Origin: a virus
Virus record (IMG/VR): IMGVR_UViG_3300020162_001770
Coordinates: 1 to 36,387 of that record
Length of the DNA stretch: 36,387 nt
Strand: one strand, 5' to 3'
The notes below the pieces were generated by a model. It was not told the DNA's origin. It worked only from the letters and a program-made list of their open reading frames with translations, and did not search any database. Shown piece by piece: positions 4,453 to 30,263 of the stretch (position 1 is its first letter; the number at the start of each line of letters is the position of its first letter). The translations under genes were made by a program, and so were the position numbers.

Positions 4453-4486
4453 ATACTTCCTTTTCTCTATTGAACGGATAAATAGA

Positions 4487-4521
4487 AATAAGACAAAGCA
4501 ATTTGCATGCTTTGTCTTATT
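4487..4521 (-). terminator. 14-bp perfect hairpin 3' of tRNA-Arg
   Basis: Perfect 14-bp inverted repeat (4487-4500 with 4508-4521; AATAAGACAAAGCA and its complement) around a 7-nt loop, 4 bases past the tRNA-Arg 3' end. In the minus-strand transcript it is followed by TTTCTATTTAT, a weak U-rich stretch. It probably terminates or protects the tRNA transcript and separates it from the mRNA for gene 4036-4452. Confidence 0.6.
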
Positions 4522-4525
4522 CCAG

Positions 4526-4598
4526 CGTTTTAGGTAGGACTTGAACCTACAACCTACAGATTAGAAGTCTGTTGCTCTATCCATTGAGCTACTAAAAC
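4526..4598 (-). tRNA. tRNA-Arg (anticodon UCU)
   Basis: A full cloverleaf can be written on the minus strand: acceptor GTTTTAG pairing CTAAAAC, D-arm GCTC...GAGC, anticodon stem ACAGA/TCTGT with loop CTTCTAA (anticodon TCT), T-arm GTAGG/CCTAC with loop TTCAAGT, and discriminator G. No CCA is encoded. It reads AGA, a codon used often by these AT-rich genes and probably poorly served in the host. It lies between the structured RNA element (4603-4726) and a hairpin. Confidence 0.93.
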
Positions 4599-4602
4599 GT
4601 AA

Positions 4603-4726
4603 TTAGAATAGGCAGGAAATCTTAACTCAACCACAATGAAAGTCTTAATACAACTAAGCCGTAAAACTTAATCGCACAGATTTCCCTTAACTTTCCGAAA
4701 GGGTAATAAAGCTTAGCCTATTCTAA
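4603..4726 (-). ncRNA. Candidate pseudoknotted structured RNA
   Basis: A 124-nt non-coding stretch between gene 4737-5330 and tRNA-Arg. It is closed by a perfect 11-bp helix (4603-4613 with 4716-4726). Inside, an 8-bp helix (4615-4622 with 4678-4685) and a 5-bp helix (4655-4659 with 4711-4715) interleave, which defines an H-type pseudoknot stacked on the outer helix. An additional 6-bp pairing (4638-4643 with 4690-4695) and a small CTTT-CCG-AAAG hairpin (4691-4701) are possible. No reading frame fits. It does not match a ribozyme or riboswitch class I can name. Confidence 0.55.
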
Positions 4727-4736
4727 ATCTTATAAA

Positions 4737-5330
4737 CTAATTACATTTAATTGACCAAGGTTTCCAACCACATTGACCATTTGCTTCACGCGAAGACCAA
4801 AGTTTATATGCAAACCAAAGATTATTTCTAGCATCAAACATATCCTCAGGATGATTGTAACCTAACTCTAACAACCAAGCTGAATGAATTTGATTAATTT
4901 GGCTTAAGCCTGCGTCATGCCCATTCCAGGCATCAACAGTACACCTTGATTCTTTCCAAAGTACTTGACTTAACTTTGGCCATTCCCTTTCTGTCCAACC
5001 AACTTCTAATGCTAAGTCGTGAAATTCACCACATTTACCATATAAGTAACGAAGTTCCTCAACAGTAAACGCTTCACCATCTTCAATTGCAATATTAACT
5101 TCATCAATATCTACAACTTCAGTTGGAAAAACTGGCATTGTCGTTGTACTTTCAATAATTGTTGTAGTTACATTCTCAGTTGTTATAGTTTGCACTACTG
5201 GACTAAGTTCATAATAACCACTTGATAACTCAATAGATTCAGTAGTATTATTCTCTGAACCTAATCCTAACTTAGCAGCACCAAGTACTACTAATATTCC
5301 TGCTATAAAAATTACTTTTTTATTTTTCAT
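4737..5330 (-). CDS. Secreted or membrane-anchored lytic transglycosylase (SLT/lysozyme-like)
   Basis: A 197-residue protein. Residues 1-5 are basic and 6-23 form a signal or anchor segment. Residues 25-75 are a Thr/Ser-rich linker. The C-terminal domain shows the SLT signature: catalytic-type E127 in KESRC, GLSQIN (141-146), and the helix pattern LWFAYKLW. Four cysteines (100, 130, 187, 196) could form two disulfides. The family cleaves peptidoglycan MurNAc-GlcNAc bonds outside the cytoplasm. It sits among tRNAs rather than with tail genes, so a role in lysis or wall remodelling fits better than a virion role. RBS AAAGGAG. Confidence 0.85.
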   Translation of the reverse strand: MKNKKVIFIAGILVVLGAAKLGLGSENNTTESIELSSGYYELSPVVQTITTENVTTTIIESTTTMPVFPTEVVDIDEVNIAIEDGEAFTVEELRYLYGKCGEFHDLALEVGWTEREWPKLSQVLWKESRCTVDAWNGHDAGLSQINQIHSAWLLELGYNHPEDMFDARNNLWFAYKLWSSREANGQCGWKPWSIKCN

Positions 5331-11047: not shown

Positions 11048-11950
11048 TCACTCACTCAAATAATTTTTAGCGTCTGCTGATAATACAATATACTTATCAA
11101 TCTTATTCTTTGTAAGCTTGTAATTGTAGTTATCAATAATCATTGATGACAATGTTATTGATTTCGTAACAAATTTAACATCACTTGCAATCATATGAGA
11201 TTTAGCGATAGCCAATGATGGTTCGCCTAACTTCTTAATTGCTAACGCAAGTCTGTCAGTATCTACATTTTTATACTTTACAATAATTGTAGAAACTGCT
11301 GTAATATATTCTGCTTGAAACGATGTAGAATTATTTCCATTGGCACTTAGTAATACTTTGATTACTTTTTCTAAGTTAATAATTCCTATCTTATTATTAA
11401 CTTTATGTAGAGTACCAATGGCTCTTATTACACCATCTCCAGGCTTATCGCCAACACAAATGTTATTACGATTAAGCATGTTATTGAGTTCAATTAACTC
11501 AACATCACCAGATTTAATTGATGCTTTGTACAAATCAGATTTCTTAGGCTTTGTACGATTCTCATTCATAATAACAAACAATCGTGCTTCATCTTCAATA
11601 GTTAAATCAAAGAATACAATTGCATTGATATCAGTATTGCCATAACCTAATTGCTTCAAAGCTTCAACTCTATGCTGACCGTCAATGATATACAAATCAC
11701 CATTCTCACGGATAGACAAAGTTACAACCCCAATAGCATTTGGATCATAATTCTTAATGATATTGGCTACTTTAATCTTATTGACATCACGCTGATAAGA
11801 CAAATCAACCATCAAATCAGCAGGCTTCACCTTAGATGAAAGCTTATTCTTAATCTTGACACTAATGCCAAGATTCCTTTTTATTTCCTCAATAGAAGCA
11901 GTTTCTTCTGCTTGTTTCGTGATTTCTTCAAAAATCTGGTCGCTATACAT
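11048..11950 (-). CDS. ParB/DGQHR-domain protein
   Basis: A 300-residue protein. Residues 45-160 carry a ParB/Srx-like domain: YQRD (52-55), IIDGQHRVEALKQLG (88-102) and NENRTKPKKSD. The DGQHR core is the conserved nucleotide/phosphate-handling motif of this superfamily, which includes CTPases, nucleases and regulators. The C-terminal half is helical. ATG at 11950 is chosen over a TTG because it has GAGGAA and an 8-bp overlap with the upstream 48-codon gene. There is no partner ParA in the window, so plasmid-type partition is not supported; a nuclease or regulatory role is open. Confidence 0.8.
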   Translation of the reverse strand: MYSDQIFEEITKQAEETASIEEIKRNLGISVKIKNKLSSKVKPADLMVDLSYQRDVNKIKVANIIKNYDPNAIGVVTLSIRENGDLYIIDGQHRVEALKQLGYGNTDINAIVFFDLTIEDEARLFVIMNENRTKPKKSDLYKASIKSGDVELIELNNMLNRNNICVGDKPGDGVIRAIGTLHKVNNKIGIINLEKVIKVLLSANGNNSTSFQAEYITAVSTIIVKYKNVDTDRLALAIKKLGEPSLAIAKSHMIASDVKFVTKSITLSSMIIDNYNYKLTKNKIDKYIVLSADAKNYLSE

Positions 11951-12089
11951 AATGTAATTCCTCAATATCTGTTGTAATGTAAACTAAATTGCCTGCTATT
12001 GTTTCTTCACATTCTCTATCTGACATGATTTGTGCAATCATTTCTGCTTCAGATTGAGAATTCAATGGGATGACAGTTGTTTTTGTCAT
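11943..12089 (-). CDS. 48-aa small protein between whiB and parB-like gene
   Basis: A frame starting MTKTTVIPLNSQSEAEMIAQ. It begins in an ATGA overlap with the WhiB stop and ends in an 8-bp ATGTATAG overlap with the ParB-like start, both standard junctions here. An N-terminal strand is followed by a helix (SEAEMIAQIMSDRECEETIAG) and a final strand; two-strand-plus-helix proteins of this size often act as partners or inhibitors. No family recognised. Confidence 0.65.
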   Translation of the reverse strand: MTKTTVIPLNSQSEAEMIAQIMSDRECEETIAGNLVYITTDIEELHYV

Positions 12090-28823: not shown

Positions 28824-30263
28824 TTAGTAACAATATTTCTTTAATTCATTAGCAATCCACTCAACAACTGGCACAGCAACAGCGTTACCAATCATTTTGT
28901 AACGGTTGGTATTGCTAATTTCTTTACCATTATCGGCAAATCTTGTATGGTCATCAGGGAACCCCATTAAACGCTCACATTCAATAGGCGTAAGCCTTCT
29001 TAGAATCAATTCTGGTGTGCATACAGCATGCATTGATACTGTGTCTAATGTATATGAAGGGTCATTTGGTTCACCAAACCCTTTTCCTGCTGGTCCAGCA
29101 GAGTCTGAGCGACCAATGATCGTGCCCTGAATGGGGATAGCAGTTGCTGGCTCAGCAATCAAAGGAACTTGGTTACCGCCAGTACCCATCCTGCTCATAA
29201 GAGTAGGGACAATACCATCATCATAAACACGAACATCATTAACTCTTGTTCCATCAACAATTAACACAGTTGAACGTGATTCACTATTGTTATCAAAAGC
29301 ATTTAAAGTCGGGCTAACGTCTTCTTGTCGCCAAACTTCTGGCGGTAAATTACCGTCAGCATCTCTTGCCCCTGAACGAATAACTTTTACAAAAGATTCA
29401 ACAGTATGCATGACAAAGTTTTCATCAGGTCGTTTATGGCTAGTAGCCCTAAATGTTGAACCACCTTCTTGGTAATTACCAAAGCCAGTCTTGCCATAAA
29501 GGATAGGCTGTGCTACAGAGTTACCACCACTTTCAACACGCATTGTTGGAAACACTTCTTCTGATACTTGTGGATCTATTCCGTTTTTGTGATTGAATCC
29601 GTATGTTGGTCCGCTAACTTTATCAGAGCCTGATAAAGCATGGGTGGAAGCTTGTTTCCTCTTCTTTCGGCTCTTCTTAAGATTCCCGTCGCTGTCTTGG
29701 GGGACAGGTAGTATTTGTGTTCCACATCTTCCAACGATTGTAGGACAGAAACTAGCAATAAGGAACAATCTTCTCCTTCTGTGTGGGACTCCAAACCATT
29801 GTGCATCCAAGATGTGCCATTCAATTGCCAATGCCCCGATGTTTGCCATTTCGTCAATGACTGCTGCGAAGTCTTCTCCTTTATTACTTGTGAGGGCACC
29901 TGGTACGTTTTCCCAGATTGCGATTTTTGGGTATTCATTTCCTGTTGCATTTCTCATCTCCTTGATGATTCTAGTTGCTTCATAAAACATTGAGGATCTC
30001 TCCCCATCAAGACCAGCACGCTTACCAGCAACTGACAAGTCCTGACACGGTGAACCAAAGGTAATCAAACTGACTGGCTTAATCTTTGAGCCATCAACAT
30101 CTTCAACATTAAAATACTTATCTGAATCTGGCCAATGCTTATTCAATACAGATTGGCACTTACTATCCCACTCTACTTGCCAACTGTTTTCCCAGCCAGC
30201 ATTCTGAAAACCAAGATCAAAACCTCCGACCCCAGCAAACAAACTTCCAAATGTTAATTCCAT
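28824..30263 (-). CDS. C5-cytosine DNA methyltransferase
   Basis: A 479-residue enzyme with all main C5-MTase motifs: LFAGVGGFDLG (I), GSPCQD with nucleophile C73 (IV), ENVPG (118-122, VI), PHRRRRLF (VIII) and GNAVAVP (459-465, X). The region between VIII and X is long and carries four copies of a 'PTL...V.LI' element (238, 317, 352, 403), a variable target-recognition region. It methylates cytosine in phage DNA, probably to evade host restriction or as a base for further modification. No cognate endonuclease is seen beside it. Confidence 0.93.
   Translation of the reverse strand: MELTFGSLFAGVGGFDLGFQNAGWENSWQVEWDSKCQSVLNKHWPDSDKYFNVEDVDGSKIKPVSLITFGSPCQDLSVAGKRAGLDGERSSMFYEATRIIKEMRNATGNEYPKIAIWENVPGALTSNKGEDFAAVIDEMANIGALAIEWHILDAQWFGVPHRRRRLFLIASFCPTIVGRCGTQILPVPQDSDGNLKKSRKKRKQASTHALSGSDKVSGPTYGFNHKNGIDPQVSEEVFPTMRVESGGNSVAQPILYGKTGFGNYQEGGSTFRATSHKRPDENFVMHTVESFVKVIRSGARDADGNLPPEVWRQEDVSPTLNAFDNNSESRSTVLIVDGTRVNDVRVYDDGIVPTLMSRMGTGGNQVPLIAEPATAIPIQGTIIGRSDSAGPAGKGFGEPNDPSYTLDTVSMHAVCTPELILRRLTPIECERLMGFPDDHTRFADNGKEISNTNRYKMIGNAVAVPVVEWIANELKKYCY

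Follow-up and report, generated by a model that had tools for sequence, protein, structure and literature searches.

Evidence for an uncatalogued structured RNA family in phages, often encoded beside tRNA genes

The DNA analysed here (the window) is a stretch of 36,387 nucleotides from the IMG/VR record IMGVR_UViG_3300020162_001770. It represents part of the genome of a tailed phage, with a terminase-like ORF and a DnaE polymerase whose closest relatives are found in Streptomyces phages (39% identity). A guess from the similarity of this polymerase would be that the hosts are actinobacteria. The window also encodes a C5 cytosine methylase (28824-30263) and a DUF6551/DndB-like protein (11048-11965, minus strand; Pfam E values of 5e-13 and 3e-7); the DndB family has been linked to the sulfur modification of DNA. 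The region of interest is 4603-4726, near which the minus strand carries all of the large genes and a tRNA gene. Upstream is an ORF of 197 amino acids (4737-5330, minus strand), which ends in a stop codon 10 nt ahead of the RNA described below. It has an N-terminal hydrophobic stretch followed by a Thr-rich linker, and is conserved beside the RNA in several contigs. The ORF had previously been called lysozyme-like, but this name must be treated as unverified because there is no Pfam match and no useful PHROG or PDB match. Downstream, a tRNA-Arg(UCU) gene (4525-4598, minus strand; identified by ARAGORN, and by Rfam with 76 bits) starts 4 nt after the closing helix of the RNA, and is followed by a hairpin resembling an intrinsic terminator (4485-4523, minus strand; -21.6 kcal/mol, z -5.6), which is predicted as the likely end of the transcript.

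The minus strand, read from 4726 to 4603, folds at -37.4 kcal/mol (z -3.66), and none of 200 shuffles is as good. For the plus strand the values are -22.5 kcal/mol and z -2.25, with 8 of the 200 shuffles as good. The family covariance model R1 gives the minus strand 133 bits against 19.6 bits for the plus strand. In the family alignment about 56 of the 487 paired cells (~11%) are G-U. The strand scores and the G-U cells together identify the product as a minus-strand RNA, and the proportion of G-U pairs implies that selection acts on the RNA of that strand. This RNA is about 124 nt long (4603-4726), with its 5' end near 4726 and its 3' end near 4603. A preliminary description of the locus had read the plus strand, which the fold energy, the model scores, the G-U pairs and the direction of the genes all show to be the wrong one. 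Two of its helices are indeed present, an 11-bp closing helix without mismatches (4603-4613 with 4716-4726) and an inner helix of 8 bp (4615-4622 with 4678-4685), and we agree that no reading frame explains the RNA. However, the interleaving helix that it proposed, forming an H-type pseudoknot, did not survive comparison with relatives. The sole interleaving helix found pairs CTAAGC (4653-4658) with GCTTAG (4710-4715); this complementarity is present in the window copy, is reduced to a 5-mer in one relative, and is absent from the other 13.

Instead, helices P1, P2 and P3 meet in a three-way junction, with P4 and P5 carried on P3. The consensus order in the family is the closing helix P1, the dinucleotide UA, the P2 hairpin with the loop YCCUUUCU, the dinucleotide AA, and then P3 bearing P4 and P5. 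In the window copy, where all elements are on the minus strand, P1 is formed by UUAGAAUAGGC (4716-4726) and GCCUAUUCUAA (4603-4613), and 10 of its 11 pairs show double changes in the covariation test. The conserved UA (4714-4715) precedes the 5' strand of P2 (AGCUUU, 4708-4713), the loop AUUACCCUUUCGG (4695-4707), which includes the anti-Shine-Dalgarno-like motif CCUUUC, and the 3' strand (AAAGUU, 4689-4694); four of the six P2 pairs show double changes. After the conserved AA (4687-4688) comes P3, formed by GGGAAAUCU (4678-4686) and AGAUUUCCU (4614-4622), with double changes in seven of nine pairs and 100% of cells paired. The P4 hairpin (4648-4677) has 13 bp in the window copy, and its basal three pairs covary. 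P5 (4624-4644; 5 bp, taken from the MFE fold) varies within the family, as does the upper part of P4, and both are predicted by folding only. The unpaired UA and AA are invariant, as is UAA..UUAAG, this conservation being partly by construction because the seed patterns favour GCUAAG/CUAAG and UUAAG. An alternative pseudoknot, in which CCUU of the loop pairs with AAGG of the junction, could form in 9 of 15 members, without compensatory change.

Homologues were sought by scanning IMG/VR with patterns of differing constraints, and were confirmed using two covariance models, R1 (built from three sequences) and R2 (refined). At least 16 phage contigs share the RNA, with 17 full-length copies among them and three compact tandem copies in addition. 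With a pattern that specified the closing helix alone, two copies were recovered (L002 and L003), 0.5 kb apart on one 90.9-kb contig, and further copies are L047, L053, L067-L069, L072, L074, L075, L077, L136, L178, L276, L240 and L300. All members are metagenomic contigs, with no isolate among them; they range from 32 to 55% in G+C, and the RNA from 93 to 174 nt in length. The window copy scores 107.9 bits with R2 (with the window copy in the model), and its membership is also indicated by compensatory pairs in P1, P2 and P3. The sequence of P1 is wholly different between members, being UUAGAAUAGGC/GCCUAUUCUAA in the window, GUGGGGAGGGC/GCUCUCCCCAC in L276 and AUGGUAAGC/GCUUACCAU in L300. The compact copy, of 97 nt, occurs on the contigs of L068, L069 and L077, and at L069:8143-8246 it lies between a tRNA-Arg and a full copy. 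Its P3 bears a single hairpin, two of its loops are C-rich (UCCCCUUUC and UCCCC), and the full copy neighbouring it has a P1 of 26 bp.

Several candidates were rejected as members. In L001 the agreement of P1 is a coincidence (R1 gives 17 bits and R2 no match), while in L344 (17 bits) and in L137 and L141 (from a group scoring 18-23 bits) the fold is absent on inspection; L148, L172 and L176 have the same score (18-23 bits) and length as L137 and L141 and were likewise set aside. Phages with the same upstream gene as the window (L004-L020) have no copy of the RNA by R1 or R2. A blastn search of INPHARED with the window RNA and four relatives found nothing related, R2 was negative on fifteen records of isolated actinophages that have a DnaE-type polymerase, and a pattern scan of genome contigs gave false matches only. 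In Rfam 15, a scan already suggested in the preliminary description, the window and seven member-holding loci match only tRNA at the gathering cut-off, with no other ncRNA family; permissive Rfam scans of three members gave nothing near threshold. A literature search of partial coverage found no earlier description of this RNA family. It is worth adding that an unrelated conserved 5'-UTR-like stretch, AAATAGGCTAACAGCA...GGGGAAGGTTAGAGTCCTTC...GCGGATTAAAATGCCTATTGTT, was noticed at L027:3212-3329, L028:9008-9123 (minus strand) and L029:4675-4790, all three being phage contigs, with GGCTAACAGCA repeated on each side of the start codon. This is possibly another structured RNA.

The homologous loci contain covarying base pairs, so that the test by which the preliminary description could have been refuted did not refute it. 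In an alignment of 20 sequences (18 distinct) fitted to the covariance model, 24 of the 29 modelled pairs have double changes, and 96.4% of cells are paired, as against 39-49% in slid controls. None of the shuffles reaches any of the five covariation measures. The number of double-change pairs grows with sampling, from 9/29 with three sequences (slid controls: 0-1) to 21/29 with 14 and 24/29 with 20. When 15 sequences were aligned by plain MAFFT, with no fitting to the structure, the picture was similar: the structure pairs form in 12-15 of the 15 sequences, and they take nine of the top ten places when 4707 column pairs are ranked by APC-corrected G statistic. We regard the existence of the RNA family as practically certain. 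Sequence comparison also strongly supports the view that it is an uncatalogued structured RNA family of phages, present in diverse environmental contigs.

A co-directional tRNA neighbour is found for 13 of the 17 full copies, this being tRNA-Arg(UCU) in 11 cases, tRNA-Lys in one, and a tRNA with anticodon CAU in one. In eight of the 13 the tRNA is within 1-4 nt. The tRNA is 5' of the RNA with a spacer of 1 nt in L002, L067, L074, L075 and L136, and of 3 nt in L300. The order is reversed in the window and in L003, where P1 ends 4 nt and 3 nt, respectively, before the tRNA. A T-run comes right after P1 in several of the copies located 3' of a tRNA; the window copy has none. Given that eight copies abut the tRNA by 1-4 nt, one end of the RNA is probably produced by the enzymes that mature the tRNA. 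Co-maturation of the RNA with the tRNA, where the two abut, seems reasonably probable. However, four copies are without a co-directional tRNA, namely L072 (a short fragment), L178, L276 and L240, the last being followed by a convergent tRNA. It follows that tRNA-coupled processing is not universal; the RNA can evidently exist without a co-directional tRNA, as it does in L178, L276 and L240. We note also that one phage contig carries 26 tRNA genes in 10 kb (L024:735-10660). The original proposal of an unassigned structured ncRNA beside a tRNA is therefore upheld by the Rfam result, the covariation and the recurrent tRNA linkage, and is corrected as to the pseudoknot and the strand.

The P2 loop provides a clue to possible function. 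Two of the scans required CCUUUC, and for this reason only the 13 copies reachable by loop-free patterns were counted; 11 of these have CCUUUC in P2, usually in the form YCCUUUCU. The exceptions are L002 (CCCCUAGG) and L300 (GGUC), the latter carrying UUCCUUAU in the P5 loop instead. The 3' end of 16S rRNA in actinobacteria and firmicutes is CACCUCCUUUCU-3'. We take the P2 loop to correspond to the last part of this tail, that is, to the anti-Shine-Dalgarno sequence, assuming that the tail in the hosts ends CCUCCUUUCU. The hexamers complementary to UCCUUUCU, namely AAAGGA, GAAAGG and AGAAAG, rank 3, 6 and 7 among hexamers upstream of 586 gene starts in 11 member contigs, these counts being approximate because the longest ORF was taken to set each gene start. 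By the count of matching stretches, none of 1500 random 8-mers matches the upstream regions better than UCCUUUCU. Shuffles of the loop's own letters are as good in 22/279 cases for the window, 106/279 for G020, 3/279 for G023 and 4/300 for G024. The match of the loop to ribosome-binding sites is generic, and only in some genomes does it stand out strongly from shuffles of the same letters.

These features suggest a possible mechanism. The RNA would share a transcript with a phage tRNA, in most cases tRNA-Arg UCU, and the two would then be matured together. RNase P or RNase Z, in trimming the tRNA, may also create one end of the RNA, and the other end may be made by P1 plus the U-run, or by the downstream terminator. 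The P2 loop, as a copy of the 16S tail, would then pair with the Shine-Dalgarno sequence of host and/or phage mRNAs. Such pairing would lower or redirect translation of the mRNA during infection, in the manner of the C-rich-loop sRNAs of actinobacteria; in the mycobacterial B11/6C sRNA, both C-rich loops repress their targets via 5' UTRs, according to PMC10470900 (which cites Mai et al. 2019). Anti-Shine-Dalgarno action of the P2 loop, judged from its sequence, has in our view somewhat less than an even chance of being correct. The whole chain, in which a trans-acting sRNA is released with the tRNA and modulates translation by pairing of the P2 loop with ribosome-binding sites, is put forward as the most likely of the readings considered, though an equally tentative one. 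A bolder version would have the RNA as a phage mimic of the 16S 3' tail, a stable RNA freed by tRNA maturation whose anti-Shine-Dalgarno loop reprogrammes the choice of mRNA by host ribosomes; this we consider unlikely.

The strongest rival is that the RNA acts structurally or as a decoy, with a protein or the ribosome as its partner, and either sequesters a host factor or forms a stable small particle; CCUUUC would then serve as a protein-binding or tertiary-contact element. A rigid three-way junction with invariant unpaired UA/AA and UAA..UUAAG (partly forced by the patterns) is what might be expected of such an RNA, and the tRNA-linked phage RNAs GOLLD and ROOL form cages, GOLLD also pulling down ribosomes (PMC12286853). 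Against this, the sequence of the loop is that of an anti-Shine-Dalgarno in particular, and the loop is kept in the compact copy although P5 is missing there. We rate this explanation as rather unlikely. The five copies at 1-nt spacing from the tRNA, and the U-runs that immediately follow P1 in several copies lying on the 3' side of a tRNA, could instead point to a cis element of the tRNA transcript, acting as a trailer or leader in termination or protection of the 3' end or as an aid to tRNA maturation. This is quite unlikely, since the RNA is 5' of the tRNA in the window and in L003, the window has a separate downstream terminator, L178 and L276 have no tRNA, and a 3' protector does not need the conserved loop.

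A regulatory leader of the downstream gene, riboswitch-like or autoregulatory, would be consistent with the start codons found 27-38 nt after the matched RNA in L047, L053 and L136, and 6 nt after it in L178. It is nevertheless improbable: what follows is a tRNA in the window and L003, another copy of the RNA in the case of the compact copies, and a convergent tRNA in L240, and the downstream genes belong to more than one family. The self-cleaving element or tRNA-processing guide proposed in the preliminary description is very improbable. The RNA does have a compact multi-helix fold adjoining a tRNA, but the members scanned match no ribozyme or other Rfam family, even below threshold, the pseudoknot is not conserved, the ends of P1 vary freely, and four copies are without a co-directional tRNA. 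It is hardly conceivable that this is a DNA-level element (a cruciform or mobile inverted repeat) or a chance fold. The inverted repeat is perfect, and one contig has two paralogous copies, as such an element might; but G-U pairs make up ~11% on one strand only, the model scores are 133 against 19.6 bits by strand, and the covariation contradicts both ideas.

Among known systems, RNA C and D of the T4 tRNA cluster are small stable RNAs encoded among phage tRNAs. They resemble the present RNA in being small and in their location beside tRNAs, a likeness that we offer as a lead only. The actinobacterial 6C/B11 RNA consists of two simple hairpins with runs of C. It is chromosomal, and is without a closing P1 or three-way junction, whereas the present family is phage-borne and has both. 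Rfam scans of members, in a library that should include 6C if it is catalogued, give no match to 6C/B11, and with a different architecture and no profile match the present RNA is not a member of that family. The two may nevertheless act alike: 6C/B11 is a small RNA whose C-rich hairpin loops repress via 5' UTRs (PMC10470900), and the CCUUUC loop of the present RNA, being complementary to phage ribosome-binding sites, might pair with them. The right-end ncRNA of mycobacteriophages L5 and D29 is likewise a small phage ncRNA, being an abundant, host-toxic actinophage RNA from a genome-end region of ~500 nt with the Pleft promoter (PMC5712189); unlike most of the present copies, it is not linked to a tRNA. 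GOLLD and ROOL are structured RNAs of phages and prophages, and are often near tRNA islands. As the preliminary description anticipated for GOLLD, the tRNA-side habit is shared and the size and structure are not: GOLLD is often >800 nt, and both RNAs form multimeric cages (PMC12286853), whereas the present RNA is 93-174 nt, has a different secondary structure, and is not matched by the Rfam models of either. The present work adds an uncatalogued structured RNA family to phages, several of the contigs being probably from actinophages by the DnaE similarity of the window. Set beside GOLLD and ROOL, the present RNA is small, directly joined to a tRNA and equipped with a testable anti-Shine-Dalgarno motif, which makes it tractable by experiment to ask what phages gain from having RNAs of this sort next to tRNA genes.
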